Origin: Plantactinospora alkalitolerans
GTDB lineage: Bacteria; Actinomycetota; Actinomycetes; Mycobacteriales; Micromonosporaceae
Direction of reading: 5' to 3'
Assembly: GCF_015690345.1 (NCBI RefSeq)
Contig: NZ_JADPUN010000115.1
Location: forward strand, 1 to 43,402
DNA: 43,402 nucleotides
A program made the position numbers and the translations under genes. Shown here piece after piece: positions 15,099 through 35,861 of the stretch (the stretch's first letter is position 1; every line of letters begins with the position of its first letter). The notes under the pieces were generated by a model. The model made no database searches. It had not been told where the DNA came from and was given only the letters and a program-made list of their open reading frames with translations.

Positions 15099-15138
15099 CC
15101 GGGTGACGGCAGACCCGGGCCCCGGCGGGCCACGTGAT

Positions 15139-15191
15139 GGGAAGGGCCCCTTCCTATACAGAAAGCGATAAGAAGGGGCCCTTCCTTGCAT
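15139..15191. repeat. Palindromic repeat element, copy 1
   Basis: GGAAGGGCCCCTTC (15140-15153) pairs perfectly with GAAGGGGCCCTTCC (15172-15185) around an 18-base loop, CTATACAGAAAGCGATAA. Each arm is itself nearly palindromic. Copy 2, in the same orientation, lies at 21471-21523. It stands 50-100 bp before the importer's binding-protein gene. Size and structure fit a REP/MITE-like non-coding repeat. Confidence 0.85.
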
Positions 15192-15239
15192 TTCTTCCCA
15201 GCTCCGGTGCGGGCTGGCCGCCAGCAGAAAGGCCTGATC

Positions 15240-16505: not shown

Positions 16506-16539
16506 GTGGGCGCGGCGACGAGCGGAGCGGGGAGGGCGC

Positions 16540-17400: not shown

Positions 17401-17422
17401 GCCAATCACGAGAGGCAGGACG

Positions 17423-18508
17423 ATGAGCGCGCCGACCGTACTGCACCGGCCGTCGCCGGCCCGGCTCCGAGCATTTCCGGTACGACGGCTGCCGTCCTGG
17501 ACCACCGCTGTGGTGATCGTGGCAGCGCTGGCCGCGTACCCACTGGTCTTCGCCGACTCGGCGGCGCACAACATCGGCATCCTGGCGTTGACCTTCGGCA
17601 TCGCGGCCACCGGATGGAACCTGCTCGGCGGCTACGCCGGACAGGTCTCCTTCGGGCACGCGCTGTACTTCGGCACCGGCGCCTACACCACCGCGCTGCT
17701 GGTCCGCGACGGCTGGTCGCCGTGGCTGGCGATCGCCCTCTCGCTGCCGCTGGCCGCGTTGTTCGCCGCCGCCGTCGGCTGGCCGTGCTTCCGGCTGCGG
17801 CACCACTACTACTCGATCGCGACCATCGCCGTCGCCGAGATCGTCTTCATCCTGGTCACCAACCTGCCCGGCCTCGGGCAGGCGAACGGCTGGGAGTTGC
17901 CGGTGGTCGAGCCGTCCCTGGCCAACCTGCAGTTCTCGCTGCTGGACAAGCGGCCGTACTACTACGTGGCGCTCGGCTTCTTCTGCGTCGCCGCGCTCGC
18001 CGTCTGGCTGTTCCTGCGGGGCCGGGCCGGAAACTACGTCCGGGCCATCCGCGACGACCAGGTCGCCGCGGCGGCGGTCGGGATCGACGTGCACCGGTAC
18101 AAGCTGGCCGCCGCCGCCCTGTCCGGGGCGATCACCGCGCTGGCCGGCGGCTTCTACGTGATGTACGTCCTCTTCGTCGACCCGCCCTCGGGGCTCGGAC
18201 TGGACCTCTCGGTGTCGTTCACCCTGATGGCCGTGCTCGGCGGGGTCGGCCGGTTCTGGGGGCCGCTGCTCGGTGCCTGGGTGCTGGTCTTCGTCCAGGA
18301 CCTCACCCGGCAGGAGTTCTCCGGCAGCGGCCGATCGGTGGACCTGCTGCTCTACGGTGCGCTGATCGTCCTGGTGTCGATCACCGAGCCGGGCGGCCTG
18401 CTGGCCATCCTGCAACGGTTGTGGGCGCCGGTCGCCCGCCGACTGGGCCGGGCGTCCCGGACCGAAACCGACCCTGAGCCGGTCGAGTCTGCTGAGGTGA
18501 AGGCATGA
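17423..18508 (+). CDS. LivM-type ABC importer permease
   Basis: The 361-residue partner permease carries the LivM signature (ALTFGIAATGWNLLGGYAGQVSFGHALYFGTGAYTTALL) at about residues 55-95, and the cytoplasmic loop YVRAIRDDQVAAAAVGIDVHRYKLAAAALSGAITALAGGFY at about 203-243. A short basic N-terminus and a hydrophilic C-terminal tail flank the helices. ATG 17423 follows GAGAGGCAGGA. Its stop overlaps the LivG-type ATPase start as ATGA. Confidence 0.95.
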   Translation: MSAPTVLHRPSPARLRAFPVRRLPSWTTAVVIVAALAAYPLVFADSAAHNIGILALTFGIAATGWNLLGGYAGQVSFGHALYFGTGAYTTALLVRDGWSPWLAIALSLPLAALFAAAVGWPCFRLRHHYYSIATIAVAEIVFILVTNLPGLGQANGWELPVVEPSLANLQFSLLDKRPYYYVALGFFCVAALAVWLFLRGRAGNYVRAIRDDQVAAAAVGIDVHRYKLAAAALSGAITALAGGFYVMYVLFVDPPSGLGLDLSVSFTLMAVLGGVGRFWGPLLGAWVLVFVQDLTRQEFSGSGRSVDLLLYGALIVLVSITEPGGLLAILQRLWAPVARRLGRASRTETDPEPVESAEVKA

Positions 18509-19227
18509 GCGCGACGTTGTTGAAGGTCGACAACCTGTCCTGCCGGTTCGGTGGGCTGTGGGCCAACCGGGACGTCAGCTTCTCCGTCGAGCAGGGCGCC
18601 ATCATGGGGCTGATCGGACCGAACGGCGCCGGCAAGAGCACGCTCTTCGCCATGGTGGCCGGCGCGCAGCGTCCCACCGCCGGCCGGTTGCACTTCGACG
18701 GCCGGGACGTCACCGGCTGGCCACCGCACGCCGCCGCCCGGGCCGGGGTCGGCCGCACCTTCCAACTGATGCGGGTCTTCGGCTCGATGAGCGTGCTGGA
18801 CAACCTGACCACGGCGTCCTTCGTCCGGCATTCCCGGTTGCGGGACGCCCGGCGGCGGGCCCGGGAGGTCGCCGAACTGGCCGGACTGGTACCGGTACTG
18901 GACTCGCCGGCCGCGTCGCTCACCGCGGCCTGGAAGAAGCGGCTGGAGATGGGACGGGCGCTCGCCACCGACCCGAAGTTGCTGCTGCTCGACGAGGTGC
19001 TCTCCGGACTGACGCCCACCGAGGCGCGCGAGGCGGTGGAGATCGTCCGCACCATCAACCGTGGCGGCGTCACCATCCTGATGGTGGAACACGTAATGGA
19101 GGTCATCATGCCGCTCTGCCACCGGCTGGTCGTACTGCACTACGGGCAGAAGATCAGTGAGGGCGCGCCGGAGCAGGTCGCGCACGACCCGGCCGTGGTC
19201 GAGGCGTACCTCGGAAAGGCCCTGTAG
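18505..19227 (+). CDS. LivG-type ABC importer ATPase with atypical signature
   Basis: A 240-residue ATPase of the LIV importer. Walker A is GPNGAGKST (about residue 40), the Q-loop region is VGRTFQLMRVFGSMSVLDNL, Walker B is LLLLDEVLSGLTPTE (about 155) and the switch His is in MVEHVMEV. The usual LSGGQ (LSYGQ in LivG) is replaced by SLTAAWKKRLEMGRAL, with neither glycine nor Gln. Similar LT-x4-KRLE forms occur in a subset of HAAT ATPases. The ATP site may depend on the LivF partner's intact signature. It overlaps livM upstream and abuts livF directly. Confidence 0.93.
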   Translation: MSATLLKVDNLSCRFGGLWANRDVSFSVEQGAIMGLIGPNGAGKSTLFAMVAGAQRPTAGRLHFDGRDVTGWPPHAAARAGVGRTFQLMRVFGSMSVLDNLTTASFVRHSRLRDARRRAREVAELAGLVPVLDSPAASLTAAWKKRLEMGRALATDPKLLLLDEVLSGLTPTEAREAVEIVRTINRGGVTILMVEHVMEVIMPLCHRLVVLHYGQKISEGAPEQVAHDPAVVEAYLGKAL

Positions 19228-19929
19228 ATGTTGACCGTGAGCGATCTCCATGTGGACTACGCCGGGGTCGTCGCGCTGCGCGGCGTGGACCTGCGGGTCG
19301 AACCCGGCGAGCTGGTGGCGCTGGTCGGCGCGAACGGGGCCGGCAAGAGCACGCTGCTGGCGGCCGTATCCGGGCTGCACCGACCGGTACGCGGCACGGT
19401 GACCTTCCTCGACGAGGAGGTCGGCAGGCTGCCGGCGTACCGGATCGCCCGCCGGGGTGCGGTGCTGGTGCCGGAGGGGCGGCGGCTGTTCGGGCACCAG
19501 ACCGTCCTGCAGAACCTGCTGCTCGGCGGCTATCACCGGACCTCGGCGGAGCGGGAGGCGGACCTGTCCCGGGTGTACGAACTCTTCCCGATCCTCGCCG
19601 AGCGGTCCGGTCAGCGTGCCGGCACCCTCTCCGGGGGTGAGCAGCAGATGGTGGCGCTGGGCAGGGCGCTGATGAGTCGACCGAAGCTGCTGATGCTCGA
19701 CGAACCGTCGCTCGGCATCTCACCCAAGTTCACCAGGATGATTTTCGAGGTGCTGGCCGAGATCCGCCGGGCCGGCACCACCATCCTGCTGGTAGAGCAG
19801 AACCTGCGGGCCGCGCTGGAGCTGGCCGACCGGGCGTACGTGCTCCAGACCGGCGAGGTGGTGATGTCCGGCCCGGCCGACGAACTCGCCTCCTCCGACG
19901 AGGTACGGCGCTCGTACCTCGGGCTGTGA
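19228..19929 (+). CDS. LivF-type ABC importer ATPase
   Basis: This 233-residue ATPase begins at the base after the LivG-type stop. It has a complete motif set: Walker A GANGAGKST (about residue 35), Q-loop LVPEGRRLFGHQTVLQNLLLG, signature TLSGGEQQMVALGRAL (about 130), Walker B LLMLDEPSLGISP (about 153) and the switch LVEQN. The stop overlaps the next gene as GTGA, tying the importer to pxpB by translational coupling. Confidence 0.95.
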   Translation: MLTVSDLHVDYAGVVALRGVDLRVEPGELVALVGANGAGKSTLLAAVSGLHRPVRGTVTFLDEEVGRLPAYRIARRGAVLVPEGRRLFGHQTVLQNLLLGGYHRTSAEREADLSRVYELFPILAERSGQRAGTLSGGEQQMVALGRALMSRPKLLMLDEPSLGISPKFTRMIFEVLAEIRRAGTTILLVEQNLRAALELADRAYVLQTGEVVMSGPADELASSDEVRRSYLGL

Positions 19930-20603
19930 GCCGCGTCGACGAGGGATGGGCGGCGGTGCGGATCATCCCGGTGGGCCTGCGTGCGCTGCTGGTCGAGGTG
20001 CCGGAGCCGGCGTACGCCCACGCGCTGGTCGCCGAACTCGACCGGCGGCGGGAACGCGGTGAACTGCCCGGCGTCGAGGACGTCGTACCCGGCGAACGCA
20101 CCGTGCTGGTCGACGGGCTCGACGATCCGGCGGGCCTGGCGGCGCAACTCGCCACCTGGCGGCCGACGTCGGCCCGCCTGCCGGACGGCCCGCTGGTCGA
20201 GGTGCCGGTCCGGTACGACGGTGCCGACCTCGCGGAGGTCGCCCGGAGATGGCAGGTTCGCGAGGAGGACGTCGGACGGATCCACAGCGCCCCGGAGTAC
20301 CGGGTCGCGTTCTGCGGCTTCGCGCCCGGCTTCGGTTACCTCACCGGACTGCCCGAGCGCTACCACCTGCCCCGGCGGGCGGTGCCCCGGACCAGGGTGC
20401 CGGCCGGGTCGGTCGCGCTGGCCGGTGGCTACGCCGGGATCTACCCACGGGACTCGCCGGGCGGCTGGCAGCTGCTCGGCCGTACCGACCTGGTGCTCTT
20501 CGATCCGGGCCGGAACCCGGTCGCCCTGCTCACCCCCGGCACCCGGGTCCGGTTCCGGGACGTCGACGCTCCCGAGGACGCCGATCGGGACGTCAGCGGA
20601 TGA
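19926..20603 (+). CDS. pxpB: 5-oxoprolinase subunit B (KipI-like)
   Basis: A 225-residue PxpB/KipI-type protein, part of the 5-oxoprolinase complex. Family landmarks are VRIIPVGLRALLVEV at the start, VEVPVRYDGADLAEVA near residue 90, IHSAPEYRVAFCGFAPGFGYLTGLPERYHLPRRAVPRTRVPAGSVALAGGYAGIYP across 120-175 and GGWQLLGRTDLVLFDP near 180. GTG 19926 gives a GTGA overlap with the ATPase gene. GTG 19956, nearer the usual family N-terminus and preceded by GAGGGATGGG, is an equally good start. It overlaps pxpC as ATGA. Confidence 0.95.
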   Translation: MSRVDEGWAAVRIIPVGLRALLVEVPEPAYAHALVAELDRRRERGELPGVEDVVPGERTVLVDGLDDPAGLAAQLATWRPTSARLPDGPLVEVPVRYDGADLAEVARRWQVREEDVGRIHSAPEYRVAFCGFAPGFGYLTGLPERYHLPRRAVPRTRVPAGSVALAGGYAGIYPRDSPGGWQLLGRTDLVLFDPGRNPVALLTPGTRVRFRDVDAPEDADRDVSG

Positions 20604-21502
20604 GCACCGGACGATTCGTCGAGGTGGTCCGGTCCGGCGCGCTCAGCACCGTGCAGGACCTCGGCCGCCCCGGGCACGCCCACCTCGGCGTACCGCGGTC
20701 GGGAGCGCTCGACCTTCCGGCGCACCTGCTGGCGAACCGGCTGGTCGGCAATCCCGCGGACGCGGCGACGATCGAGACGACGATCACCGGAGTCTCGCTG
20801 CGGGTCGGTCAGGCCGCCACCGTCGCGGTCACCGGGGCGTGGGCACCGGTGACCGTCGACGGCCGCCCGGCGGGCTGGTCGGCGCCGGTGTCGGTGCCGG
20901 CGGGCGCGCGCGTCGACGTGGCCACCGCGAAGCGTGGCCTCCGCAGCTACCTCGCCTTCTCCGGCGGTATCGCGGTTGCGCCGGTGCTCGGTAGCAGGTC
21001 GACCGACCTGCTCTCCGGACTCGGACCGGCCCCGCTCGCGGTCGGTGACCGGCTGCCGCTGGGCGAGGTTGCCGGGCCGCCGGCTCCGGTCGACGTCGCC
21101 CCGACCGGGACGCTGACCGAGGAGACGACCCTGCGGGTCGTGCTCGGCCCGCGCGCCGACTGGTTCACCGACGACGCGCCGGGGATTCTCGCCGGGCCCG
21201 GATACCGGGTGTCCACCCTGAGCAACCGGGTGGGGATGCGCCTGGAGGGACCCGCGCTGCCCCGGCGGATCGGCGGGGAACTGCGCAGCGAGGGGGTGGT
21301 GCTCGGAGCGGTGCAGGTGCCCGCCGCCGGCACCCCGGTCATCTTCCTGGCCGACCATCCGACGATGGGCGGGTACCCGGTGATCGGCGTGGTGCACCCG
21401 GACGACCTCCCACTGGCCGCCCAGGCCGCACCCGGCACCCCGATCCGGTTCCGGATCGTCGAGGGTGTGCGGAGGGGGCCCTTCTTATACAGAAAACGAT
21501 AA
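20600..21502 (+). CDS. pxpC: 5-oxoprolinase subunit C (KipA-like)
   Basis: The 300-residue PxpC/KipA protein completes the 5-oxoprolinase. Recognisable stretches are [30 protein letters not shown] at the start, [17 protein letters not shown] near residue 50, [24 protein letters not shown] near 115-135, [17 protein letters not shown] near 210 and the C-terminal [17 protein letters not shown] near 255-270. The last eight residues, GPFLYRKR, and the stop codon are encoded by the palindromic repeat element (copy 2), so the natural end of the protein has been replaced. Confidence 0.95.
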
Positions 21503-24937: not shown

Positions 24938-24975
24938 ATTAGACTAATAAGTTGACTGACGACATGAGTCTGTCA
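24938..24975. promoter_or_regulatory. Two palindromes upstream of the CBM2-esterase gene
   Basis: ATTAGACTAAT (24938-24948) has five-base arms around one base. TGACTGAC (24953-24960) and GTCTGTCA (24968-24975) form an inverted repeat with one mismatch around seven bases. Both lie in an AT-rich pocket 58-95 bp before the start codon and probably mark the promoter and a regulator site. The rest of 24720-25032 shows nothing else. Confidence 0.45.
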
Positions 24976-25032
24976 CATGATTGCAGCGACAGGCGTCGAT
25001 GTGACGTGTGCAGGATCGTTGGGAGGACGAGC

Positions 25033-26163
25033 ATGGCTCTTCGTACCCGCATGGCCGCGGCCGGTGCCGCGGTCACCACGGCGTTGGCCGTGATCTCAAC
25101 CCCGCTGCGGAGGTGTGGGGGCGGGGCGATGCGCCGCCCCCGGCTCCGCGTGCTCGTCGCGGTCGCCGTGCCGGTGGCGTTAGCCGCCACCGGCAGCGTC
25201 GTCTCGGCGACCGCGCACGCGGCAGCCGCCGGTTGCCGGGTGAACTATGCGGTGAGTTCCCAGTGGCAGGGTGGCTTCGGCGCCAACATCAGCCTGACCA
25301 ACCTGGGTGATCCGATCACCAACTGGATGTTGACCTGGTCGTTCGGTGCCGGCCAGCAGGTGACCCAGGCATGGAATGCCACGGTCACCCAGAGCGGGTC
25401 ACAGGTCAGCGCCCGCAACGTGGGCTGGAACGGCAACCTCGGCACCAACACCAGTACGACCTTCGGATTCAACGGCTCGTGGAACAACAGCAGCAACCCG
25501 GCACCGTCCAGCTTCGCGCTCAACGGTGTGACCTGCAACGGTACGAGCCAACCGGGACCGACGGGAACGCCCACGTCCGGCCCCACCCCGACGCCGCCGA
25601 GTCCGACCACGGGTCCGACCGGCGGCCCCCAGCCGGCGAACTCGATGGGCTTCATCGGCTGCTCGATGGCGGAGAACGTCGCGCAGGGGTATGTCGCGAT
25701 CGGCGGCCGGCGCATCTGGGGCCCGTACGGGACCGGCGGCATGGTCGTGCAGTCGTGGACGGACACCAATTCCAGCTCGTGGCGGCTGTTCGACCAGCAG
25801 GCGAGCCGGTACGGAAGGCCGACGGCGGTGTGGGTGCAGATCTGCATCTTCTCCCAGAACGGAGCGACCTACGACGAGGTCAGGCGACTCATCGCCAACG
25901 CCCGTCAGCACGCTGCCCCCGGAGCGACGATCTACATCTCCGGTCAGCCGCTCTACGATGCCGGCCAGAGCTGCTTCCTGGCCGGGGCCAACGGTCCACA
26001 GTTGACCGACAGCCTCGCCCGGCAGGCGGCCGCCGACACGACGCAGAACGTGACCTACCCTGGGACGTTCCGGCTACGGAGCAACGAGGTGTCGGACGGC
26101 TGCCACGCCAACTCGGCCGGACAGTCGTCGCTCGGCAGGCAGGCCCAGGCGTACTGGGGCTGA
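25033..26163 (+). CDS. Secreted CBM2 - linker - SGNH esterase
   Basis: A 376-residue exported plant-polymer enzyme. After the signal region comes a family 2 carbohydrate-binding module (CRVNYAVSSQWQGGFGANISLTNLG...WSFGAGQQVTQAWNATVTQSG), with aromatic binding residues and two Cys at its ends. Next is a Pro/Thr/Gly linker, then an SGNH-like domain. The nucleophile is probably Ser in FIGCSMAENV, and the terminal DGCH carries the Asp-His pair. An acetyl-esterase role on cellulose-bound xylan is likely but inferred. Two starts compete: ATG 25033 with GGGAGGA 5 bases upstream, and ATG 25129, which gives a more usual signal peptide (MRRPRLRVLVAVAVPVALA). Confidence 0.85.
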   Translation: MALRTRMAAAGAAVTTALAVISTPLRRCGGGAMRRPRLRVLVAVAVPVALAATGSVVSATAHAAAAGCRVNYAVSSQWQGGFGANISLTNLGDPITNWMLTWSFGAGQQVTQAWNATVTQSGSQVSARNVGWNGNLGTNTSTTFGFNGSWNNSSNPAPSSFALNGVTCNGTSQPGPTGTPTSGPTPTPPSPTTGPTGGPQPANSMGFIGCSMAENVAQGYVAIGGRRIWGPYGTGGMVVQSWTDTNSSSWRLFDQQASRYGRPTAVWVQICIFSQNGATYDEVRRLIANARQHAAPGATIYISGQPLYDAGQSCFLAGANGPQLTDSLARQAAADTTQNVTYPGTFRLRSNEVSDGCHANSAGQSSLGRQAQAYWG

Positions 26164-26193: not shown

Positions 26194-26694
26194 TCAGTCG
26201 CAGCCGACCCCGGTGCCGTCGTCGGCCGGCGCCGCCGTCTCGTACGAGGTGATCGCGGCGACCTTGGCGGCGGACGCCGACGACGCGTCGAAGCGGTAGC
26301 CCAGCCACTCCCGGGCCAGGCGCCGGGCCAGCTCCAGCCCGATCACCCGCTGCCCCATCGCCAGCACCTGGGCGTCGTTGCTGAGCACGGCGCGTTCCAC
26401 GGAGAAGCCGTCGTGGGCGGTCACCGCCCGGATGCCCGGCACCTTGTTGGCCGCGATCGCCATGCCGAGGCCGGTGCCGCAGATCAGCAGCGCCCGGTCC
26501 GCCCGGCCCTGCGCGACCAGCCGGGCGGCGGCCACCGCCACGTGCGGGTACGCCGTCGTGTCGTCCCGGCCCACGCCGACGTCCTCGACCGAGGCGACCC
26601 GGTCGTCCGCCTCCAGATCGGCGCGGAGTACCTCCTTGTAGTGCAGGCCCGCGTCGTCGCAGCCGACGACGACGCGCAGCCGTTCGGGGCTCAT
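26194..26694 (-). CDS. RpiB/LacAB-type sugar-phosphate isomerase
   Basis: The 166-residue protein interconverts aldose and ketose phosphates. RpiB-family marks are [16 protein letters not shown] at the start, [56 protein letters not shown] in the middle, with the CGTG catalytic loop, and [16 protein letters not shown] near residue 115. Next to a DhaK-DhaL kinase, homologues in mycobacterial and Brucella tetritol pathways convert D-erythrulose 4-phosphate to D-erythrose 4-phosphate, so that role is plausible here. Its start overlaps the kinase stop as ATGA. It is the last gene of the operon. Confidence 0.9.
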
Positions 26695-28532
26695 CTCCCT
26701 GACCTCCCGTCCACCGTGGACACCTCCGGTCTGTTCGCTGCGTGCCGCTCGAATGCCGTCGCCACGGTGCGGAGGCAGAGCGCCAGCGACACGGCGCCGG
26801 GGTCCGGGGTACCGACGCTCCGCTCGGCCAGCGGACGGGCCCGGCCGATCCTGGGCCGCAGTCCGGCGGTGGCGTCCGCCGCCCGGTCGGCCACCTCGGC
26901 CGCCTGCTGCCAGGCCGCCCCGAGCGGCGTGCCGGACCCGGCGGCGGTGTCGAGGGCGTCGTGGAACGGCATCAGGGCGTCGAGCAGCGTCTTGTCGCCG
27001 GGCTCGGCACCACCCAGTCCCTGCACGGTCTCGATCGCGGCCCAGACCGCGGCCCGGACCTCGGCCGTACCGAGCGGGCTGCGCTCGTCGCCCAGTTGCT
27101 CGCCGGCCGAGCGGAGGGCCGCACCCCACAGCACTCCGGAGGTGCCGCCGGCCCGGGCCGCCCAGGCGTCTCCGGCCGCGCCGAGCACCGACGCGACGCC
27201 GCCTCCACCGTCGACCGTACCCCTGGCGGCCTCGGCGGCGGCCCGCACGCCACGCAGCATGCCACGCCCGTGGTCACCGTCACCGGCCACCGCGTCCAGC
27301 CGACCCAGCTCGTCCTCGGCGGCCGCGATCGCCTCGGCGACCTCCGCGAACACCTCGGCGACGGACCGGCCGTACGCCCGGGACTCCGAACTGCTCCGCG
27401 CCGTCCCGGCGCCGTCGTTCGCGGTGTCGGCGACCACCTGCCCGCCGTTCGCGGAGCCGGCGACCACCTGCCCGCTGCTGTCGGAGTCGGAGCCGGTCGC
27501 GGCCCGATCCGTCCCGTCGGCGATGGGCGCGGCCCGGTGCGGGTTCTTCCGGTACGCCGGAGTGTCGGCCGGCGCGCACCAGAAGCCCTCCAACTCCTCG
27601 TCCAGCCAGCAGAGGGTCAGCGAGCAGCCGGCCATGTCCAGGCTGGTGACCAGCTCGCCGACCTCGGGGTCGACCACCTCGAGCCCGGCCCGGGAGAGTT
27701 CCTCGGCGACCGTCTTCCAGACGACGAACAGCTCCTCGTACTTCGTGGCCCCCAGACCGTTGAGGATGGCGGCGACGCGGTGGCCGGCGCCCTCCGGCCG
27801 CTCGGCGAGGACGCCACGGGCCAGCACCCGGGCGAGTTCCGAGGCGGTCGGCAGGTCGTCGGAGGAGACCCCGGGCTCGCCGTGGATGCCCAGCCCGAGC
27901 CCCATGGTGCCGGCCGGCACGGTGAACAGCGGATGATCCTGGCCGGGCAGGGTGCAGCCGGCGAACGCGACGCCGAGCGACCGGGTCAGCGCGTTGGTGG
28001 CCTGGGCGACCCGTTCGACCTCGGCCAACGGGTAGCCGGCTTCGGCCGCCGCGGCGGCGGTCTTGAAGACCACGAAGTCACCGGCGATGCCTCGGCGCTT
28101 GTCCGCCTCGGCCGGAACGGCGCTGGCGATGTCGTCGGTGACCAGCACGGTCCGGGTGTCGATACCCTCCGCCCGCAGCCGCTGCTGGGCCAGCCCGAAG
28201 TTCATCACGTCCCCGGCGTAGTTGCCGAAGAGGAAGAGCACCCCGCCGCCGTTGTCGGCGGCCCGGGCCACCTCGTACGCCTGCTGCGCCGAGGGGGAGG
28301 TGAAGATGTTGCCCACCACGGCGCCGTCGGCGAAGCCGGGCCCGACCACGCCGCAGAACGCCGGATAGTGTCCGGATCCGCCGCCGACCACCACCGCGAC
28401 CTTTCCGGCGCGGGTGGCCCCGGCCCGGACCACGCCGCCGTCGACGCCCCGGACGTAGCGGCGGTGCAGGTCGAGGAAGCCGGCGAGCATGTCCTCGGTG
28501 AACGAGGCGGGATCGTCGTACAGGCGGGTCAT
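26691..28532 (-). CDS. DhaK-DhaL fused kinase (dihydroxyacetone/tetrulose kinase family)
   Basis: The 613-residue ATP-dependent kinase joins both domains in one chain. DhaK (about residues 1-330) has [42 protein letters not shown] and GLGIHGEPG, whose His binds the carbonyl substrate covalently. A linker of about 65 residues contains a duplicated 10-residue unit ([20 protein letters not shown]). DhaL (about 400-590) has the metal-binding [12 protein letters not shown] and [13 protein letters not shown]. Family members phosphorylate dihydroxyacetone or erythrulose. GGAGGAG precedes ATG 28532. Both ends overlap neighbours as ATGA. Confidence 0.93.
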
Positions 28533-29491
28533 CGGCCAGCTCCTCCGGTCGGCGGGTCGGAGCGTTCCGACCCGGCTGTCCCGTCCTCCGGCGCCAGCAG
28601 CGTGACGACCTTCGAATCGTCCTCGGCCGCCATGCCCTGGCGCATTGCCAGGGTGTAGAGCTGGGTGGCGGCGGCCGCGACCGGTGTCGGCACTCCCGCC
28701 GCCGAGGCGACCCGGCCGACGATGTGCATGTCCTTGCTGATCACGTCCAACCGGGACCGCAACTCGACGTCCCCAGTGTACGCCCGTGCCATCCGTGGGC
28801 CTCGATCCGCCAGCATGAACGAGGCCGCCGCGCCCGAGCCGAGTACCTCGACCACGGTGTCGAGATCGAGGCCGAGCGCGCGGGCCAGCGCCAACGCCTC
28901 GGCCGCGGCGGCGGTGTGGATGCCGCAGAGCAGTTGGTTCACCGTCTTCATGGTCTGGCCGTCGCCCGGGTGCGGGCCGACGACGTGCACGCTGGAGGCC
29001 AGCAGGTCGAGCACCCGGCGGCCGCGCGCGAGCGCCCGGTCCGTCGCGCCGACCATGATCAGCAGGTCGCCGGTGCCGGCCCGGACCGGTCCGCCGCTCA
29101 CCGGCGCGTCGACCAGGTCGATCTGCCGTTCGGCCAGTGCCGCCGCGACCGTCTTCGCCGCCTCCGGGCCGACGGTGCTGGTCAGCACGACCACGGCACC
29201 CGGCCGCAGGGTGTCGATGGCGCCGTCGTCGCCGAACAGCGCGGCCCGGAGCTGGGCCTCGTCGCGGACGGCGAGCACCACGACGTCGGCCGTCCGGCAC
29301 GCCAGCGCCGGACTTCCCGCCCCGACCGCGCCGCCGGAGACGGCGAGTTCGCGCCGCTCGGCGGAGATGTCGAAGGCCCACACCGGCAGTTCGGTGCTGA
29401 GCCGGAGCGCCATCGGCAGCCCCATCGCGCCCAGACCGAGGACGGCGACGGTCGGCGGGGTCGGTTCGTTCGGTGGTCCGTGCCGGGTCAC
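28529..29491 (-). CDS. Beta-hydroxyacid dehydrogenase (6-phosphogluconate-dehydrogenase-like)
   Basis: This 320-residue NAD(P)-dependent enzyme oxidises a 3-hydroxyacid or similar sugar-derived substrate. It has the Rossmann motif VAVLGLGAMGLPMALRL at about residue 17, the substrate motif DAPVSGGPVRAGTGDLLIMVG at about 125-145, the catalytic Lys in GDGQTMKTVNQLL at about 178, and the C-terminal KDMHIVGRVASAAGVPTPV. GTG 29491 follows GGAGG and overlaps the TIM-barrel gene's stop as GTGA. Relatives act on glycerate, tartronate-semialdehyde or four-carbon acid sugars (LtnD type); which of these applies is open. Confidence 0.92.
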   Translation of the reverse strand: MTRHGPPNEPTPPTVAVLGLGAMGLPMALRLSTELPVWAFDISAERRELAVSGGAVGAGSPALACRTADVVVLAVRDEAQLRAALFGDDGAIDTLRPGAVVVLTSTVGPEAAKTVAAALAERQIDLVDAPVSGGPVRAGTGDLLIMVGATDRALARGRRVLDLLASSVHVVGPHPGDGQTMKTVNQLLCGIHTAAAAEALALARALGLDLDTVVEVLGSGAAASFMLADRGPRMARAYTGDVELRSRLDVISKDMHIVGRVASAAGVPTPVAAAATQLYTLAMRQGMAAEDDSKVVTLLAPEDGTAGSERSDPPTGGAGR

Positions 29492-30420
29492 GGTGCCTCC
29501 TTCGGGGGCAGGATCGACGCGAGGTAGCGGCGGTTCGTGGACATCACGCCGAGCCCGTCCCCGCCGTACTGTTCCAGGCAGAACGCCCCGCTGAAGCCGT
29601 ACGCGACGGCGGAGCGGACCGCCCGGCGGTAGTTGATGACGCCCAGTTCCATCGAGGTCGGCGTGCTGAGCACCGCGCCGGTCGTACCATCCTCGAACCG
29701 GTGATAGTTCTTGACGTGCCAGTAGTTCGTCAACGGCAGGCACTTGTCGAGCATCACCTCGATCGGCTCGATCGGCCGGTGCAACCGGACCAGGTTGCCG
29801 AGGTCGGGGTTGAGTCCGACGTTCGGATGCCCGATCTCCTCGATCAGCCGGACGGCGGAGTCGGCGGTGCCGAGCAGGGTGTCCTCGTACATCTCCAGGG
29901 AGAGGGCGACGCCGACCTCGGCGGCGTGCCGGCCCAGTTCGCGTAGCCGGGACGCGGCCAGCTGGCGGGTTTCCGGATCGTCCGCGTCGCGTGGCCCGTC
30001 CACGGTCCAGAACCACAGCACCTCGCGCTGCCGGGCGGTCAGCGGACGGTGCAGGCCGACGCTCAGCACCGAGCAGCCGAGCGCCGCCGCCGCGTCGATC
30101 GACCGGTGGCTGTAGTCGAGGTTCTCCACCCCCGTCACCGGGTCGATGACGCTGCGCCGGATCACCGAGATCGCCTCGGCCCGCAGCCCGGCCGCGCGGA
30201 CCGCCTCGCCCAGTTCGGTCAGCCGGGCGGGGGAGAGGTCACCGGCCCGGACCCACGAGTCCGTCAGGTCGACCTCGGTGAAGCCCTCGGCCGCCACCTC
30301 GGCGAGAATGTCCCGCCAGGTCTGCGCCGGGGCGTCCTGCACCGGCACGCCGGGCCGGAGTTCGGCCGGAAACGGCAGCATGGCCGCCGCCAGCGGCCAG
30401 CCGGAGTCAGCCGTCGGCAT
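29488..30420 (-). CDS. TIM-barrel sugar isomerase/epimerase (xylose-isomerase-like)
   Basis: A 310-residue AP-endonuclease-2/xylose-isomerase-like barrel. The metal ligands expected of the fold are visible: Glu in ALSLEMYEDT (about 170), Asp in NVGLNPDLGN (about 203), His in YWHVKNYHRF (about 230) and Glu in GAFCLEQYGG (about 280). Such enzymes isomerise or epimerise ketoses; in C-glycoside and 3-keto-sugar pathways relatives catalyse elimination or hydration. ATG 30420 lies inside the preceding DUF6807 gene (14-bp overlap). Confidence 0.88.
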   Translation of the reverse strand: MPTADSGWPLAAAMLPFPAELRPGVPVQDAPAQTWRDILAEVAAEGFTEVDLTDSWVRAGDLSPARLTELGEAVRAAGLRAEAISVIRRSVIDPVTGVENLDYSHRSIDAAAALGCSVLSVGLHRPLTARQREVLWFWTVDGPRDADDPETRQLAASRLRELGRHAAEVGVALSLEMYEDTLLGTADSAVRLIEEIGHPNVGLNPDLGNLVRLHRPIEPIEVMLDKCLPLTNYWHVKNYHRFEDGTTGAVLSTPTSMELGVINYRRAVRSAVAYGFSGAFCLEQYGGDGLGVMSTNRRYLASILPPKEAP

Positions 30421-31480
30421 GGTGCCTCCTCGGTTCGTCAGTCAACAGGTCGGTCATGCCGGCCCGTTCGGCCAGCCGGGCACATCCGGCCACGTCCCGC
30501 TCGCCGTCCGCGACGAGAACGTCGTAGCGTAGGCGCAGCTCGGTGCGGGGCGCGAAGGCGTACTCCCGGTCGAAGAACGGGGCCGGGCCGAGGCAGGCGT
30601 ACGGCTCGGTGCGGACGAACCAGCGGGTCCGGCCGCCGACGTTCGCCGGGTCGTCCCGGAAGACCAGGGTGGAGGTCAGCGCGGCGGGCGGTCCGAGGCC
30701 GTCGTGCCGGCCCACGAAACCCATCCACGGCCCGCGCCAGCCCATGAGTTCGTCGGCACCCGGGCCGTCCTCGGTCAACACCTGTCCGCCGATGAACGAG
30801 CGGGGGCCGTGCCAGAACAGTCCGCCGTAGCCGGCGTTCTCCCGACCCTGGGTGGTCGGGCTGCCGACCGTGATCACCTCGTCGGTGTCGTTGCGGAGCA
30901 CGGTCTCGAACTGGAGTCGCCAGGTGCTCAGGTTGGCCCACACGGCCACGGCCAGCCGACGCCGCTCGGAGACGACCGGGCTGCCGTCCGGACCGACCCA
31001 GCGGAGCCGTTCGACCAGGCGTACGGCGTCGGCGTCGCGGCGCAGCGCCGGGAAGTCGACGTGCGCGACGAGCCCGAGATTGTCCAGCGACCGGTAGCCC
31101 TGACCCCGTACGTACGTCGACCCGCCCCAGAAGTTGTACGGCCCGAAGTTGGAGACGCCGAAGCAGAGCCCCTTGTGCCACAGGTGGTTGTGCGGGCGGT
31201 ACAGGCTGACCACGTTGCCGGCGAGGGTCCGCATCGGGTGCAGGTAGGGCCTCGGGGACTCGGCCCGGGGCTCCTCCGGCGTGTAGACGTAGTCGAACAG
31301 TTCCGTGCCGTGCCAACCGACCCGGACCGAGCGGCCGACGTCGTGCGTGACGGTCAGTCCGCTGCTGGGCCGTGTCGTCGTCGCCCCGGAGTCCGCCCGC
31401 CCGGGAAGCGCGGAGGGCAGCTCGGCGGGCGCGGTGGCGGGCGCCGGTACGGCGACAGCCGGGGCTGAGAGGTTCACCAT
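30407..31480 (-). CDS. DUF6807 (PmoA-like) protein, second paralogue of the operon
   Basis: A 357-residue protein of the family sometimes labelled PmoA-like (DUF6807). No signal peptide or membrane helix is seen. Shared motifs with the operon's first gene are SPRPYLHPMRTLAGNVVSLYRPHNHLWHKGLCFG (about residue 73-105), NFWGGSTYVRGQGY, GSPTTQGRENAGYGGLFWHGPR and WMGFVGRHD. The concentration of His, Asn and Trp suggests a beta-sandwich sugar- or metal-binding protein. No reaction is established, and the methane-oxygenase name is misleading. The first 45 residues are a low-complexity Ala/Pro tail absent from the paralogue. ATG 31480 overlaps the upstream gene by 7 bp. Confidence 0.85.
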   Translation of the reverse strand: MVNLSAPAVAVPAPATAPAELPSALPGRADSGATTTRPSSGLTVTHDVGRSVRVGWHGTELFDYVYTPEEPRAESPRPYLHPMRTLAGNVVSLYRPHNHLWHKGLCFGVSNFGPYNFWGGSTYVRGQGYRSLDNLGLVAHVDFPALRRDADAVRLVERLRWVGPDGSPVVSERRRLAVAVWANLSTWRLQFETVLRNDTDEVITVGSPTTQGRENAGYGGLFWHGPRSFIGGQVLTEDGPGADELMGWRGPWMGFVGRHDGLGPPAALTSTLVFRDDPANVGGRTRWFVRTEPYACLGPAPFFDREYAFAPRTELRLRYDVLVADGERDVAGCARLAERAGMTDLLTDEPRRHHADG

Positions 31481-32553
31481 CGGGGTCCGTTGCCTTCCAT
31501 CTTCCGGTAGAACGGTGAATCGGTGGAGAGTTCGTCCGGCCGGACGGCGCTGCGGGTGAACGCCGAGGCGTACACCCCGGCGACGAGCTGCATCGTCCGC
31601 CGGCTCTCGGTGGAGGTCACCGGTGCCGGCGTACCCGTCCGGAGGCTCCGCAGCACCTCGGCGAACTGCGCGCGGTGTGCACTGCGTACCCCGGAGGCGC
31701 CGCTGTGCCAGGCCCCCATCACCTCGTCGGCGAACTCCGGCGCGGGGGTGATCCGCCAGTCGTCGTCGCCGTAGCCGTACAGGTGGGTCAGCTCCACCGT
31801 GGCCCGTTCGAAGTCGAAGCGCAGGTAGCTCTCCTCGCGGATCGACAGCATGCTGTTCACCACGCTGGCCGCCGCGCCGCCCGCGAAGCTGACGTGGGCC
31901 ATGCTCAGATCCTCGGTGTCCATCCGCCGGGCCTGCTGCCGGGCGACGGCGGAGACCTCGGTCCAGTCGCCGAGGATCGCGCAGAGCAGGTCCATCTGGT
32001 GGATACCGTGTCCCATGGTCGGCCCGCCGCCCTCGGTGTCCCAGCGGCCCCGCCACTCGACGTCGAAGTAGGCCTGGTTCCGGAACCAGGTGGTGTGACA
32101 GATCGCCAGCAGCGGTCGACCCAGTACCCCGGAGTCGAGCATGGCGCGCAGCCGTATCGCGCCGGTGCCGAACCGGTGCTGGAAGACGGTGGCCAGCGCC
32201 GCCCCGTGCTTCCGCTCGGCCTCGATCAGGTTGTCGAACTCGGCCAGGCTCAGCGCCGGCGGCTTCTCGACCAGTACGTTGCTGCCCGCCTCCAGGCAGG
32301 CCAGTGCCAGGTCGTGGTGGGTGCCGGGCGGGGTGCAGATGTGCACCAGGTCGGGCTGTTCCTTCTCCAGGAGGCTGGTCAGATCAGGGTGCCGGGCCGG
32401 TACGTCGTACCGGTCGCAGAACGCCGACAGCCGGTCGACGTCGACGTCGACGGCACCGACCAGGCGTACGCCGTCGCCCAGGCCGCGCAGTGAATCGGCG
32501 TGGATTCGCGCGATGTTTCCGGTTCCGACGATCGCGGCACGGATGGGTTCCAC
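31474..32553 (-). CDS. Gfo/Idh/MocA-family oxidoreductase
   Basis: The 359-residue NAD(P)-dependent sugar dehydrogenase has the Rossmann motif AAIVGTGNIARIHADSL at the N-terminus, the family EKP motif in VLVEKPPALSLAEFD (about residue 95) and the catalytic stretch GGGPTMGHGIHQMDLLCAILG (about 175), whose Asp and His act on the sugar hydroxyl. It probably oxidises the incoming sugar or glycoside in the first step of the pathway. The start is GTG 32553, with AAGGAG six bases upstream. It lies 30 bp after the cupin gene, the only gap within the operon. Confidence 0.93.
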   Translation of the reverse strand: MEPIRAAIVGTGNIARIHADSLRGLGDGVRLVGAVDVDVDRLSAFCDRYDVPARHPDLTSLLEKEQPDLVHICTPPGTHHDLALACLEAGSNVLVEKPPALSLAEFDNLIEAERKHGAALATVFQHRFGTGAIRLRAMLDSGVLGRPLLAICHTTWFRNQAYFDVEWRGRWDTEGGGPTMGHGIHQMDLLCAILGDWTEVSAVARQQARRMDTEDLSMAHVSFAGGAAASVVNSMLSIREESYLRFDFERATVELTHLYGYGDDDWRITPAPEFADEVMGAWHSGASGVRSAHRAQFAEVLRSLRTGTPAPVTSTESRRTMQLVAGVYASAFTRSAVRPDELSTDSPFYRKMEGNGPRW

Positions 32554-32583
32554 AGAGGCTCCTTCGACGGTTGCGGGGCGGCG

Positions 32584-33381
32584 CTATCCGCGTCCGGCAC
32601 GGAGGGGGTCGTACGGGGAGAGGTAGCCGCACATGCCCAGGGTCGTCCGGTCGGGCCGGGCGATCCGGGAGACGGCGGCGGCGGCCAGGTGGCTGTGGTC
32701 GCCGCGCCGGAGGGCGTCGATCTGTTCCCCGGTCTGTCGGCTCACGGCGACCGGCCCGGATTCCCAGCGGGCCTGCCAGGCGTCCAGTTGCGGCCCCGCC
32801 AGGGCGGTGGCCGCCGTGTAGAACTCGTCGAGCGCGGCGGTGTCTCCGGCCTCGTACCTGCGACGGAGTTCGGTGAACCCCTCGATCGCGAGGTCCCGGC
32901 GGGCCCGGGCCCGGTCGGCGGACGGCGACCCGGCGCCGCCCGGCCCGGTCAGCGAGACCGCCCGCCGGTACGTCGGCAGATCCACCAGGTGTGCCGGTGG
33001 CACGGTGAGTACGGCGTCGCCGGCCTCCGGCAGTCCGCTGTTCTGCATCACCACGACGACCTGTAGCGCGCCGTCGTCGTTCACGGCCCGGTGGATGGTG
33101 CCGGGCGTGAACCAGACCACGTCGCCCGGGGTCAGCGTCGACTCCTCGAACCCCTGCGGCGTCAGCGTCTGTAACCGGCCCCGGCCGGCGACGACGACGT
33201 AGCACTCCGCGCAGCAGAGGTGCACGTGTGGCGAGCCGCCGTGCAGTCCGTCGTCGGTCTGCCACGGATAGACCTGCAACCCGCTGATGCCGACCGCGCC
33301 GGGGAAGGGCGGCATCCCGGCGGGCTCGGGGACCGGCGGCGTCCCGGTCGGGTCGGCGGGTGCCCCGCTGTCGTCGGTCAC
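32584..33381 (-). CDS. Cupin-domain protein
   Basis: A 265-residue protein with a single cupin barrel in its first half. Metal-binding motif 1 is SPHVHLCCAECYVVVAGRGR (His-x-His, Glu) and motif 2 is GDVVWFTPGTIHRAV. The C-terminal half is helical (RRDLAIEGFTELRRRYEAGDTAALDEFYTAATALAGPQLDAW) and without known relatives that I recognise. It may be a sugar isomerase, lyase or sensor protein. GTG 33381 overlaps the upstream DUF6807 gene as GTGA. A proline-rich leader of about 35 residues precedes the barrel. Confidence 0.83.
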   Translation of the reverse strand: MTDDSGAPADPTGTPPVPEPAGMPPFPGAVGISGLQVYPWQTDDGLHGGSPHVHLCCAECYVVVAGRGRLQTLTPQGFEESTLTPGDVVWFTPGTIHRAVNDDGALQVVVVMQNSGLPEAGDAVLTVPPAHLVDLPTYRRAVSLTGPGGAGSPSADRARARRDLAIEGFTELRRRYEAGDTAALDEFYTAATALAGPQLDAWQARWESGPVAVSRQTGEQIDALRRGDHSHLAAAAVSRIARPDRTTLGMCGYLSPYDPLRAGRG

Positions 33382-34316
33382 GGCGACTGCTCCGCGACGA
33401 ACGACTCGATCTCCTCCCGGTCCCAGGCGCGGTCGGCGAAGACCACCCGGTGGGTCAGCCGGAAGGTTTCCCCGGGTGCGAGTTCCACCTCCTGGTCGAA
33501 GGCGGGCGACGGGTTCACGGCGGGAAACGGGTCGTTGCGGACGAACCATTTCAGCGGGACGGGGGCGCTGGTGGTGCCGGCGAGGACCAGCACGGTGCCG
33601 CCGCCGTCGACCTCGTCGTGCTGCCCGGTGTACGCCAGCCACGGCGATTCCCGGCCCATGCTCTCCGGGCCACCGCCGCCGTCGGCGGTGATAATCTGAC
33701 CGCCGGTCCAGCCGCGTGGCCCGCGCCAGAAGAAGCCGGTGTACCCGGCGTTCGGGCGGCCGTGCGTCGTCGGACTGCCGAGGTGCAGCTCCGAGCCGCG
33801 GATGTTGCGCAGTTCGGTGCCGAAGTCGAGCATCCAGCTGCCCCGGTCCGTGTCGACGCCGTGTATCCGCAGCTCCCGGTGCTCGGCGACCCAGTGCTCG
33901 TCGGTAGAGGTGATCCAGGTCAGCGACTCCCGCAGGGTCAGTTCGGTGTCGGCGACGTCGACCAGGTCGAAGGCGTCGTGCCGCATCCGCCCGATGTTGT
34001 CCAGCGCGGTGTAGCCCCTGTCGCGTACGTAGGAGTGCCCGCCCCAGAAGTTCTGCCCCGACAGGTGGGAGATCGTCATCTGGATGCCCTTGTGCCACCG
34101 GTGGTCGTTCGGCCGGTACGCCGAGACCAGCGCGCCGCTCAACGTACGCAGCGGGTGCAGGTAGGGCTTGCGTGACTCGTGGTCCGGTACCGGCGGGTCG
34201 TACACGTAGGTGGCGATGTCCACTCCGGCGGCGTTGACGACGATCTGACGTCCATGCTCGTGGGTGACGGTCAGCCTTCCGGTCGGCCCGGCCGTCGTGC
34301 TGCTTGCGGAGGTCAT
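33378..34316 (-). CDS. DUF6807 (PmoA-like) protein, first gene of the sugar operon
   Basis: This 312-residue protein is a paralogue of the one at 30407-31480. It shares RKPYLHPLRTLSGALVSAYRPNDHRWHKGIQMT, NFWGGHSYVRDRGYTALDNIG, GSPTTHGRPNAGYTGFFWRGPR and LKWFVRNDPFPAVNPSPAFD. The conserved His residues cluster in the first third. ATG 34316 follows AAAGG at about 13 bases, so the start is moderately sure. It leads the operon, divergent from a LacI regulator, which places DUF6807 proteins at the entry of this pathway. The biochemical function is unknown. Confidence 0.85.
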   Translation of the reverse strand: MTSASSTTAGPTGRLTVTHEHGRQIVVNAAGVDIATYVYDPPVPDHESRKPYLHPLRTLSGALVSAYRPNDHRWHKGIQMTISHLSGQNFWGGHSYVRDRGYTALDNIGRMRHDAFDLVDVADTELTLRESLTWITSTDEHWVAEHRELRIHGVDTDRGSWMLDFGTELRNIRGSELHLGSPTTHGRPNAGYTGFFWRGPRGWTGGQIITADGGGGPESMGRESPWLAYTGQHDEVDGGGTVLVLAGTTSAPVPLKWFVRNDPFPAVNPSPAFDQEVELAPGETFRLTHRVVFADRAWDREEIESFVAEQSP

Positions 34317-34495
34317 GGAAGCGGTCGTGCCTTTCGCTCGCTCGGGTGGACGGGTGCGGGGGCGGCGTGGGACCGTCGGCGCACCGGCGACGGTCAGCAT
34401 TGTCCCGAAGTCGGCCGTACATCGTTGTAGGTCGATTGGATGGGATGGGCGGGAAAGCTGGCTGACTGTCTTCAATGGTCTGCTCGGGCTGGGCA

Positions 34496-34574
34496 AAAGC
34501 GAACGGTAATCGCTTTCCGAGCTAACCGCTTTCCCTTCCCGACGTCAAGATCCAGCAGCCGCTGAAACACTTTC
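34496..34574. promoter_or_regulatory. LacI-type operators in the divergent promoter region
   Basis: AAAGCGA-ACGGTAA-TCGCTTT (34496-34516) is a perfect seven-base inverted repeat. A related half-site, AACCGCTTTCC, follows at 34524, and GAAACACTTTC, a smaller palindrome, lies at 34564-34574. They sit between the DUF6807-led operon and the LacI gene and fit autoregulated LacI control of both. The remainder of 34317-34823 contains no recognisable gene. Confidence 0.6.
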
Positions 34575-34823
34575 GGTGCAGGTCAGCACGGTGCGCAGGG
34601 GGACCGTCACGGGCCCGCCGGTCTGCCGGTCCGCCCGCCGCCGACGCGCCGGAGCGGCGGCCAGCCAGCGGTACCGGAGACCGGGTCTCGACCCGCCCGA
34701 TCGGCTTGCCCCGCCTGATCGGCTTGGCGATCACCACGGGGCGCCGGTGGGCACTAAGGTGCGGATGCCGGGCGTGGTGCCTGCTCGTACGTCGCCACCG
34801 ATCAACTCGTGGGGGCCGCCAAC

Positions 34824-35861
34824 ATGACCAAGCGATCATCCGCGACGATCACGCTGATGGATGTCGCCCACGAGGCCGGCGTGTCGGTGGCCACCGCCTC
34901 CCGGGTGCTGAACGGAAGCGGCACCCGGCAGGTCCGGGCGGATCTCGCGGACCGGGTGCTCGCCGCCGCCGCCGCGTTGAACTACTCCACGAACGCCCAG
35001 GCCCAGGCGATGGCCCGGGGGCACACCAATGTGGTGGGGTTACTGGTGCACGACATCGCCGACCCGTTCTTCTCGTCCATCGCGGCGGGCGTGATGCGCG
35101 CCGCGGAACAGCACCGCAGCATCGTGATGATGTACAGCACGACGGGGCGGGCCGAACGCGAACTCGACTACCTGACCACCCTGCGCAGCCAGCGCCCCCG
35201 GGCCGTCATCCTGGCCGGCAGCCGGTTCGCCGACCGTGGGCTGCGGGACCGACTCGGGGCCGAACTGCGGATCATCGAGGAGGCCGGGGCGCGGGTCGCG
35301 CTGGTGAGCCAGAACGTCCTGCCGCTCGACACGGTGCTGATGGAGAACCGCGAGGGCGGCCGGATGTTGGCGCGCAGGCTCGTCGAACTGGGGCACCGGC
35401 GGTTCGCCGTACTCGCCGGACCCCGTGCGCTGCTCACCGCCCGTGATCGACTCGCCGGGTTCCAGGCCGGGCTGACCAGCGCCGGGATCACCCTGCCGAA
35501 GGGGCGGGTGCTGCACGGCGACTTCACCCGGGACGGCGGTTACGCCACGATGCGCGACCTTCTCGCCCGCGATCTCGACGCCACCTGTGTCTTCGCCGTC
35601 AACGACGTGATGGCGGTCGGCGCCATCTCGGCGCTGCGCGACCACGGCGTACCGCTGCCCGGTGGCATGGCGGTGGCCGGCTTCGACGACATCGTCACCC
35701 TCCGGGACGTGACACCGTCGCTCACCACCGTCCGGCTTCCGCTGGAGGAGGTCGGCGTGGCGGCGCTGGAACTCGTGATGCAGCCCCGGGCCGAGCGGCC
35801 CCGACTGCGCCGGGTCCGCGGCGAGGTGGTCGTCCGGGACAGCACGCCCGCGCTGGCCTGA
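34824..35861 (+). CDS. LacI-family repressor of the sugar operon
   Basis: The 345-residue regulator has the LacI helix-turn-helix at its start (ITLMDVAHEAGVSVATASRVLNG), the hinge ALNYSTNAQAQAMARGHTNVVGLLVHDIADPFFSSI and a periplasmic-binding-type sensor. The end carries VAGFDDIVTLRDVTPSLTTVRLP, as usual. ATG 34824 follows GTGGGGG; GTG 34809 would add five residues. It is divergent from the eight-gene operon, whose sugar or pathway intermediate is its likely inducer. It ends 13 bp before the convergent TetR gene. Confidence 0.94.
   Translation: MTKRSSATITLMDVAHEAGVSVATASRVLNGSGTRQVRADLADRVLAAAAALNYSTNAQAQAMARGHTNVVGLLVHDIADPFFSSIAAGVMRAAEQHRSIVMMYSTTGRAERELDYLTTLRSQRPRAVILAGSRFADRGLRDRLGAELRIIEEAGARVALVSQNVLPLDTVLMENREGGRMLARRLVELGHRRFAVLAGPRALLTARDRLAGFQAGLTSAGITLPKGRVLHGDFTRDGGYATMRDLLARDLDATCVFAVNDVMAVGAISALRDHGVPLPGGMAVAGFDDIVTLRDVTPSLTTVRLPLEEVGVAALELVMQPRAERPRLRRVRGEVVVRDSTPALA

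Follow-up and report, generated by a model that had tools for sequence, protein, structure and literature searches.

Several described routes of sugar breakdown share enzyme types with the operon reported here. The 3-oxo-isoapionate decarboxylase branch of D-apionate catabolism reportedly yields L-erythrulose and has a Gfo-family sugar dehydrogenase upstream, and the tetritol and erythrulose pathways of Mycobacterium smegmatis are said to reach D-erythrose 4-phosphate by means of a DhaKL kinase and an RpiB isomerase. The L-threonate, D-threonate and D-erythronate pathways employ a DUF1537 kinase and an aldolase-type decarboxylase. The operon in question lies in the soil actinobacterium Plantactinospora alkalitolerans, on contig NZ_JADPUN010000115.1, which was analysed as a whole (43,402 bases, the window in what follows) and belongs to a 9.2-Mb genome with a 96% complete assembly (GCF_015690345.1). 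Operons for the beta-elimination of 3-keto-glycosides (GlycDH/OGE and the puerarin operon) combine a Gfo-family oxidoreductase with a TIM barrel resembling sugar-phosphate isomerases (PMC10628242).

The window operon comprises two gene sets. Module 1 consists of a Gfo/Idh/MocA oxidoreductase, two DUF6807 proteins and a metal-type cupin; module 2 consists of a PF01261 TIM barrel, a beta-hydroxyacid dehydrogenase of the HIBADH type, a fused DhaK-DhaL kinase (DhaKL) and an RpiB-type isomerase. The proposed order of steps (acid oxidation, decarboxylation, erythrulose kinase, isomerase) is like that reported for the D-apionate branch, whereas the operon adds two DUF6807 proteins, a metal cupin and an HIBADH-type dehydrogenase and has no recognised lactonase. 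DhaKL and RpiB are reportedly common to the operon and the M. smegmatis tetritol pathways, but the operon has no polyol dehydrogenase and its proposed entry is a decarboxylated sugar acid. With the threonate and erythronate pathways it appears to share a related HIBADH-type dehydrogenase, while it has DhaKL and RpiB in place of their kinase and decarboxylase. As in the GlycDH/OGE and puerarin operons, a Gfo-family enzyme and a TIM barrel are both present (PMC10628242); the window TIM barrel, however, belongs with the kinase and the acid dehydrogenase, and its sole strong match in the PDB is 5tnv.

In this operon, a soil actinobacterium has fused two usually separate gene sets. Our preferred reading, held at slightly less than even confidence, is that oxidative sugar processing by module 1 feeds a module 2 route from a sugar acid to D-erythrose 4-phosphate. 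The operon would represent partly known chemistry in a new combination, not something categorically new, and may encode an undescribed route of sugar breakdown. A first-pass annotation, made by a model from the sequence alone, had stated that no described pathway combines all these families; the open-licence papers searched do not contradict this, although module 2 comes close to the apionate/erythrulose route as reported.

Operon organization and conservation

The eight genes are co-directional on the minus strand, from 34316 to 26194 (Table 1), and their coordinates, strand and Pfam families bear out the operon described in the first-pass annotation. Six of the seven junctions overlap, by 4 bp in four cases and by 7 bp and 14 bp in two, and one is a 30-bp gap, so that "mostly 4-bp overlaps" was a fair description. 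The congener G058, a single-contig genome, keeps the complete order with proteins 88-96% identical. Given this shared order and the conserved promoter-like region, the arrangement is not due to chance. The divergent LacI gene reported beside the operon is present in the window; in G058, it lies 2.5 kb off with three other called genes between, and the promoter-like region is conserved nonetheless. Among the genomes searched, the complete fused order was found only in the window genome and G058.

Table 1. Coordinates of the operon genes and upstream elements in the window
Feature	Position	Strand	Basis and remarks
DUF6807-A (PF14100), module 1, first gene	33378..34316	-	Pfam, 267 bits
Metal-type cupin with helical C-terminal part, module 1	32584..33381	-	Pfam Cupin_1/Cupin_2
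Gfo/Idh/MocA oxidoreductase, module 1	31474..32553	-	Pfam
DUF6807-B (PF14100), second subfamily	30407..31480	-	Pfam, 227 bits
PF01261 TIM barrel, module 2, proposed beta-keto-acid decarboxylase	29488..30420	-	PDB 5tnv match, neighbourhoods, tree, invariant residues
HIBADH-type beta-hydroxyacid dehydrogenase, module 2	28529..29491	-	Pfam NAD_binding_2 and NAD_binding_11
DhaK-DhaL fused kinase, module 2, proposed erythrulose kinase	26691..28532	-	Pfam Dak1, Dak2
RpiB-type isomerase (LacAB_rpiB), module 2, proposed tetrulose-phosphate isomerase	26194..26694	-	Pfam
Divergent LacI-family regulator	34809..35861	+	Pfam; 96% identical copy in G058
Promoter-like -35 TTGACG, 17 bp, -10 TTAGCT	34520..34548	-	Sequence only; conserved in G058, partly in Micromonospora HM5-17
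LacI-type operator-like GGAAAGCGATTACC, directly after the -10	34505..34518	-	In G058 and HM5-17, variants differing by one base at this position

Occurrence of the two modules

The division into modules was derived from tblastn searches of the window proteins against fetched loci. Genes in these loci were predicted with a simple in-house caller and named after their best BLAST hits in a small set of reference proteins, and several neighbour names (MFS transporters, rhamnose genes, uronate dehydrogenase, pyruvate kinase, GatB, and nucleoside hydrolase) were read by eye. In a family sample, 3 of 150 genomes had the TIM barrel, and in a class sample 19 of 394; the window genome is counted in both. 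It was also present in 93 plasmid records, most of them from Sinorhizobium. Both class-sample searches scored no more than five candidates per genome.

In several actinobacterial families and in rhizobia, TIM barrel, DhaKL and RpiB are found together with no DUF6807 beside them, and Gfo, DUF6807 and cupin form a recurrent group in actinobacteria without the TIM barrel. Micromonospora sp. HM5-17, which holds the nearest named relative of DUF6807-A found (79%), carries DUF6807-A, cupin and Gfo in window order and then nothing further of the operon; no TIM-barrel match was obtained in its genome. In genome G531, the two modules are some 7 kb apart and form separate units, each with regulators of its own.

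Module 2 and the substrate of the TIM barrel

Twenty-two module 2 loci were compared; two lie on rhizobial plasmids and 20 in genomes, among them the congener. Within 8 kb of the TIM-barrel gene, DhaKL was found in 19 loci, RpiB in 16, a gene resembling triose-phosphate isomerase (TPI) in 14, and TctA, a tripartite tricarboxylate (acid) transporter gene, in seven. A beta-hydroxyacid dehydrogenase was nearby in 19 loci and belonged to the 3HCDH (11), PdxA (six), HIBADH (three) or isocitrate/isopropylmalate type (Iso_dh, one); the HIBADH-type partners occur in the congener and in two loci that also carry 3HCDH. In the TIM-barrel tree, PdxA and 3HCDH partners swap at least twice within supported clades: PdxA-bearing L040 falls inside a 3HCDH clade, and 3HCDH-bearing L044 pairs with PdxA-bearing L035. 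Because unrelated dehydrogenases interchange beside the TIM barrel, its substrate is most likely their common product type, a beta-keto acid. Residues E176, D206, K237, E283 and several arginines are invariant in 23 TIM-barrel sequences, a set that would fit a metal site and an acid substrate.

Four solved structures matched the TIM barrel at E 0.001, 5tnv with 282 bits and the others, two D-tagatose 3-epimerases and AsbF, with at most 24 bits; at this threshold, none of the solved C- or O-glycoside eliminases was matched in sequence (folds were not compared). The 5tnv protein is nearly identical to the TIM barrel of locus L041 (667 bits over 306 residues), which neighbours TPI, RpiB, DhaKL and 3HCDH genes, and the entry is labelled only AP endonuclease family protein. 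The open-licence literature, which leaves most subscription journals outside and thus provides a weak negative, mentions neither 5TNV nor "PmoA family protein". The operon's Gfo and TIM barrel had reminded the first-pass annotation of 3-keto-sugar and C-glycoside cleavage. An assignment as a pair for cleaving 3-keto-glycosides or C-glycosides was rejected because the relatives of the TIM barrel travel with the kinase, RpiB and acid dehydrogenases, not with Gfo; its only close solved relative is 5tnv.

The kinase exceeded the cut-off of NCBIfam model PRK14479 ("dihydroxyacetone kinase family protein"; 752 bits, cut-off 492), and the RpiB protein that of TIGR02133, the actinobacterial ribose-5-phosphate isomerase model (197 bits, cut-off 168). 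Both genes are adjacent with a 4-bp overlap, and the operon copy is one of two RpiB-family genes in the window genome. Their earlier interpretation as a module leading from a tetrulose to erythrose 4-phosphate gained support from the TPI-like neighbours and from the second TPI genes described below.

Module 2 might alternatively degrade a four-carbon acid such as L-threonate, with the dehydrogenase forming an oxo-tetronate and the TIM barrel isomerising it; decarboxylation would then give dihydroxyacetone, from which DhaKL would form dihydroxyacetone phosphate. The best NCBIfam model of the dehydrogenase is indeed L-threonate dehydrogenase (NF043037, 247 bits), and related dehydrogenases in L031 (by Pfam) and L036 (by similarity) adjoin a kinase with SBD_N and NBD_C domains, presumably of the DUF1537 family. 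However, RpiB has no role in a three-carbon outcome, and its frequency near the TIM barrel therefore counts against this route. Moreover, the operon contains no aldolase-type decarboxylase, and the TIM barrel matched no 2-oxo-tetronate isomerase model at E 0.001 (whether NCBIfam holds one was not checked). We regard a four-carbon acid as a distinctly improbable substrate.

Loci L029 and L045, with no acid dehydrogenase nearby, contain genes that by eye resemble those for a nucleoside-type ABC transporter and a nucleoside hydrolase.

TPI genes and the configuration of the proposed tetrulose

In the L-erythrulose route, L-erythrulose 1-phosphate is the substrate of an enzyme from the TPI family. 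Of 21 module 2 genomes, 15 have two or three TPI genes, and the window genome (G000), G058, G208, G382, G386 and G446 have one. The single PF00121 matches of G000 and the one-contig G058 fall within the housekeeping group at 315-318 bits; the second copies of other genomes reach 149-227 bits. As the window genome and its congener have no second TPI, D-erythrulose, for which no L-erythrulose-1-phosphate isomerase is required, is predicted to be more likely than L-erythrulose as the tetrulose of the operon. A gap in the 96% complete window assembly could hide a second copy, though G058 is a single contig. If this holds, a genomic rule is suggested, by which a second TPI-like gene marks L-erythrulose routes and its absence D-erythrulose routes.

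The same genes bear on a D-apiose/D-apionate operon, in which Gfo would be the apiose dehydrogenase, DUF6807 or the cupin the apionolactonase, the HIBADH-type enzyme the apionate oxidoisomerase, the TIM barrel the 3-oxo-isoapionate decarboxylase, DhaKL the L-erythrulose kinase and RpiB the final isomerase. The enzyme types resemble the decarboxylase branch of the apionate pathway as it is reported, and a pectin lyase gene (PL11) of G058 has the operator pattern of the operon upstream. Against this, the reported branch makes L-erythrulose and needs a TPI-like L-erythrulose-1-phosphate isomerase, which is found neither in the window genome nor in G058, each with one TPI. No apiosidase was recognised, and none of the window proteins scanned matched an apionate-named NCBIfam model (whether such models exist was not checked). 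An apionate operon thus appears unlikely. Of the branched sugar proposed in the first-pass annotation, apiose keeps this small chance, while the missing second TPI argues for D-erythrulose instead.

Module 1 and its neighbourhoods

Both DUF6807 proteins, 41% identical to each other, score above the PF14100 gathering cut-off of 27 bits. Residues H54, H72, H75, K76, E145, R147, H233, D234 and R260 are invariant in an alignment of 32 sequences that includes both window copies. The DUF6807-A model is a beta-sandwich (pLDDT 89) with weak fold matches to galactose-mutarotase-like domains; the best matches were GH36, GalM-type and LacZ structures (E about 1e-5 to 1e-3, TM-scores mostly 0.3-0.45), and a virus capsid protein and other unrelated entries were listed as well. 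In the cupin, the metal-type set H52, H54, E59 and H97 is invariant in 17 aligned sequences, and the fold of its model weakly resembles those of cupin phosphoglucose isomerase and dTDP-keto-sugar 3,4-ketoisomerases. The nearest solved relatives of Gfo are 3q2i (113 bits) and 3q2k (103 bits), and its 38 solved-structure matches include DgpA and glucuronide-3-dehydrogenase. That the module 1 proteins are sugar enzymes is well supported. DUF6807 is present in at least Actinobacteria, Chloroflexi and a proteobacterium. Among the open-licence texts searched, with most subscription journals outside, one mentions it, solely as a Pfam number and with no function, a weak negative.

In a pattern scan of genome contigs, a window-type Gfo adjoined DUF6807-A in 21 of 41 loci and a cupin in 16. 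The 20 loci without Gfo were one 3.8-kb contig (L047) and 19 titled Chloroflexi, Caldilineaceae or Thermoflexus. The set of 36 A-type loci combined 21 from L046-L086, chosen for a window-type Gfo, with 15 (L130-L144) chosen by DUF6807-A score, so that Gfo counts on the whole set are biased; the score-picked loci carried Gfo in 13 of 15 cases and a cupin in 11. Among 25 loci selected for a medium DUF6807-A score, 21 were nearer to DUF6807-B than to A, with Gfo beside in 13 and a cupin in 14.

Relatives of GH30, GH10 or GH115 were found in 10 of 36 A-type loci, in none of the 25 B-type loci and in none of the 22 module 2 loci. The Fisher test of A-type against module 2 loci (p = 0.009) is a guide only, because the Pfam-confirmed references were drawn from three of the ten positives (L053, L082, and L051, all A-type), several positives are closely related, and matches anywhere in the fetched locus were counted. 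GH3, GH42, GH62, GH43 and GDSL-type proteins are further neighbours of DUF6807; these tallies indicate presence, not rates, as 66 neighbour proteins were hand-picked as likely carbohydrate genes. A Streptomyces plasmid carries, in a row, genes for a transporter, a glycoside hydrolase, a xylanase, Gfo, DUF6807 ("PmoA family"), a cupin and an arabinofuranosidase.

A 4-O-methylglucuronate pathway was considered for module 1 from the GH30 and GH115 neighbours but was not pressed; the compound was not named among the literature matches listed.

The window genome has a third DUF6807 gene (L027, G000:C440, 6763-7638) adjoining a LacI gene. By eye, its neighbours resemble L-rhamnose catabolism genes and sugar ABC permeases; an FGGY kinase among them was confirmed by Pfam, and the presumed isomerase gene had no Pfam match at 1e-8. 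Five DUF6807 matches were found in G058, of which two are direct neighbours (G058:C1:8294026-8295752). In eight loci of Caldilineaceae, Chloroflexi (L059, L060, L062, L063, L064, L068, L070, and L083), DUF6807 follows a GatB-like gene, read by eye, and has neither a window-type Gfo nor a cupin beside it.

Operator-like sites and related LacI genes

Micromonospora sp. HM5-17 carries GGAAAGCGTTTACC at the operator-like position. Matches to the pattern GGAAAGCGNTTACC number two in the window genome and three in G058; neither genome has the reversed control pattern. The second copy of the window genome is flanked by another LacI gene, whose product is 42% identical to the window LacI, and by a pair of Gfo and TIM-barrel genes (Gfo2-TIM2); G058 is arranged alike, and its third copy stands just before a rhamnogalacturonan lyase gene (PL11). 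Given the copies at Gfo2-TIM2 and PL11, the operon may belong to a small regulon concerned with plant cell walls. However, each LacI gene is accompanied by an operator-like copy of its own, and related regulators may have a common operator but different functions. Relatives of Gfo2 come immediately after the cupin in L052 and L058; in L144, one is separated from the triad by a LacI gene, and in L148, one is found about 9 kb away from DUF6807. Only L144 yielded a relative of TIM2.

These sites and neighbourhoods relate to another explanation, namely that module 1 is an oxidative glycosidase system, in which Gfo would make a 3-keto glycoside or uronide, the cupin and DUF6807 would isomerise or cleave it, and Gfo2-TIM2 would complete elimination, hydration and reduction, module 2 being merely co-regulated and serving another sugar acid. 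It agrees with the matches of Gfo to DgpA and glucuronide-3-dehydrogenase among others, with the glycoside-hydrolase neighbours, with the shared operator pattern and the Gfo2 relatives near the triad, and with some DUF6807 loci having uronate-oxidation-like genes by eye. Cleavage is without direct evidence, however, the TIM2 relative is confined to one locus, and the tight chain of eight genes favours one pathway. We consider this explanation rather unlikely.

In the leader, a 20-bp stretch on the minus strand ending in ATG (34398-34417) is identical in G058; by position, this ATG is in frame with DUF6807-A in the window and out of frame in G058. In L144 (6938-16550), the DUF6807 triad, LacI, Gfo2, TIM2 and an FGGY kinase are all in one locus.

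Proposed pathway and its weighing

In the preferred reading, where every reaction, the substrate and the flow between the modules are predictions, module 1 would oxidise and open a plant-cell-wall sugar or glycoside, perhaps assisted by the Gfo-TIM pair encoded elsewhere, and deliver a five-carbon sugar acid. The HIBADH-type dehydrogenase would oxidise the beta-hydroxyl to give a 3-oxo acid, which the TIM barrel would decarboxylate to erythrulose. Phosphorylation by DhaKL and conversion by the RpiB protein would then yield D-erythrose 4-phosphate for the pentose phosphate pathway. A more specific version is a new oxidative pentose route, in which Gfo, together with DUF6807 and cupin enzymes of undescribed function, would oxidise a xylan- or pectin-derived C5 sugar to a D-pentonate; C3 dehydrogenation and decarboxylation would lead to D-erythrulose and on to erythrose 4-phosphate, with DUF6807 as a new sugar-processing class on a mutarotase-like fold. 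This version is speculative and rather unlikely.

Several results weigh against the preferred reading. Matches to DUF6807-A of at least 270 bits were not enriched in the class sample with the TIM barrel (2 of 18 genomes compared to 29 of 375, p = 0.64), while any match at E 1e-10 was (9 of 18 compared to 73 of 375, p = 0.005); the window genome was left out of these tests. General co-inheritance of the two modules was therefore rejected. The TIM barrel was also absent from all 19 module 1 genomes of the contig pattern scan, a set without a positive control. As strong matches to module 1 do not occur together with module 2 more often than expected by chance, the link between the modules is supported by the operons of two congeners only. 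No module 2 enzyme passes a curated model for its proposed activity: the dehydrogenase stays below the cut-off of its best model (350 bits), and RpiB reached 143 bits, with a cut-off of 240, to the D-erythrulose-4-phosphate isomerase model named for rhizobia. Three of the 22 loci (L029, L037 at a contig edge, and L045) have no recognised dehydrogenase near the TIM barrel, no acid transporter lies within the operon, and the four other module 2 genomes with one TPI show that the lack of a second TPI is no peculiarity of this operon. Lastly, DgpA and glucuronide-3-dehydrogenase as relatives of Gfo would point to oxidation of a ring hydroxyl and not of C1.

Here, a single transcription unit unites two DUF6807 subfamilies with enzymes whose chemistry can be guessed; this restricts the class of substrates to consider and opens the function of the family to testing. 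A decarboxylating route from a sugar acid to erythrose 4-phosphate, if true, would be useful to metabolic engineers.

Other features of the window

An Rfam scan of the window at gathering thresholds matched no RNA element. A CBM2 protein gene (24952-26163), whose product has a C-terminal part that is SGNH-esterase-like by eye, is convergent with the operon and 30 bp from its end. A cluster at 12720-21502, which encodes LamB/YcsF, both carboxyltransferase-domain proteins and a branched-chain-type ABC transporter, resembles a 5-oxoprolinase cluster.

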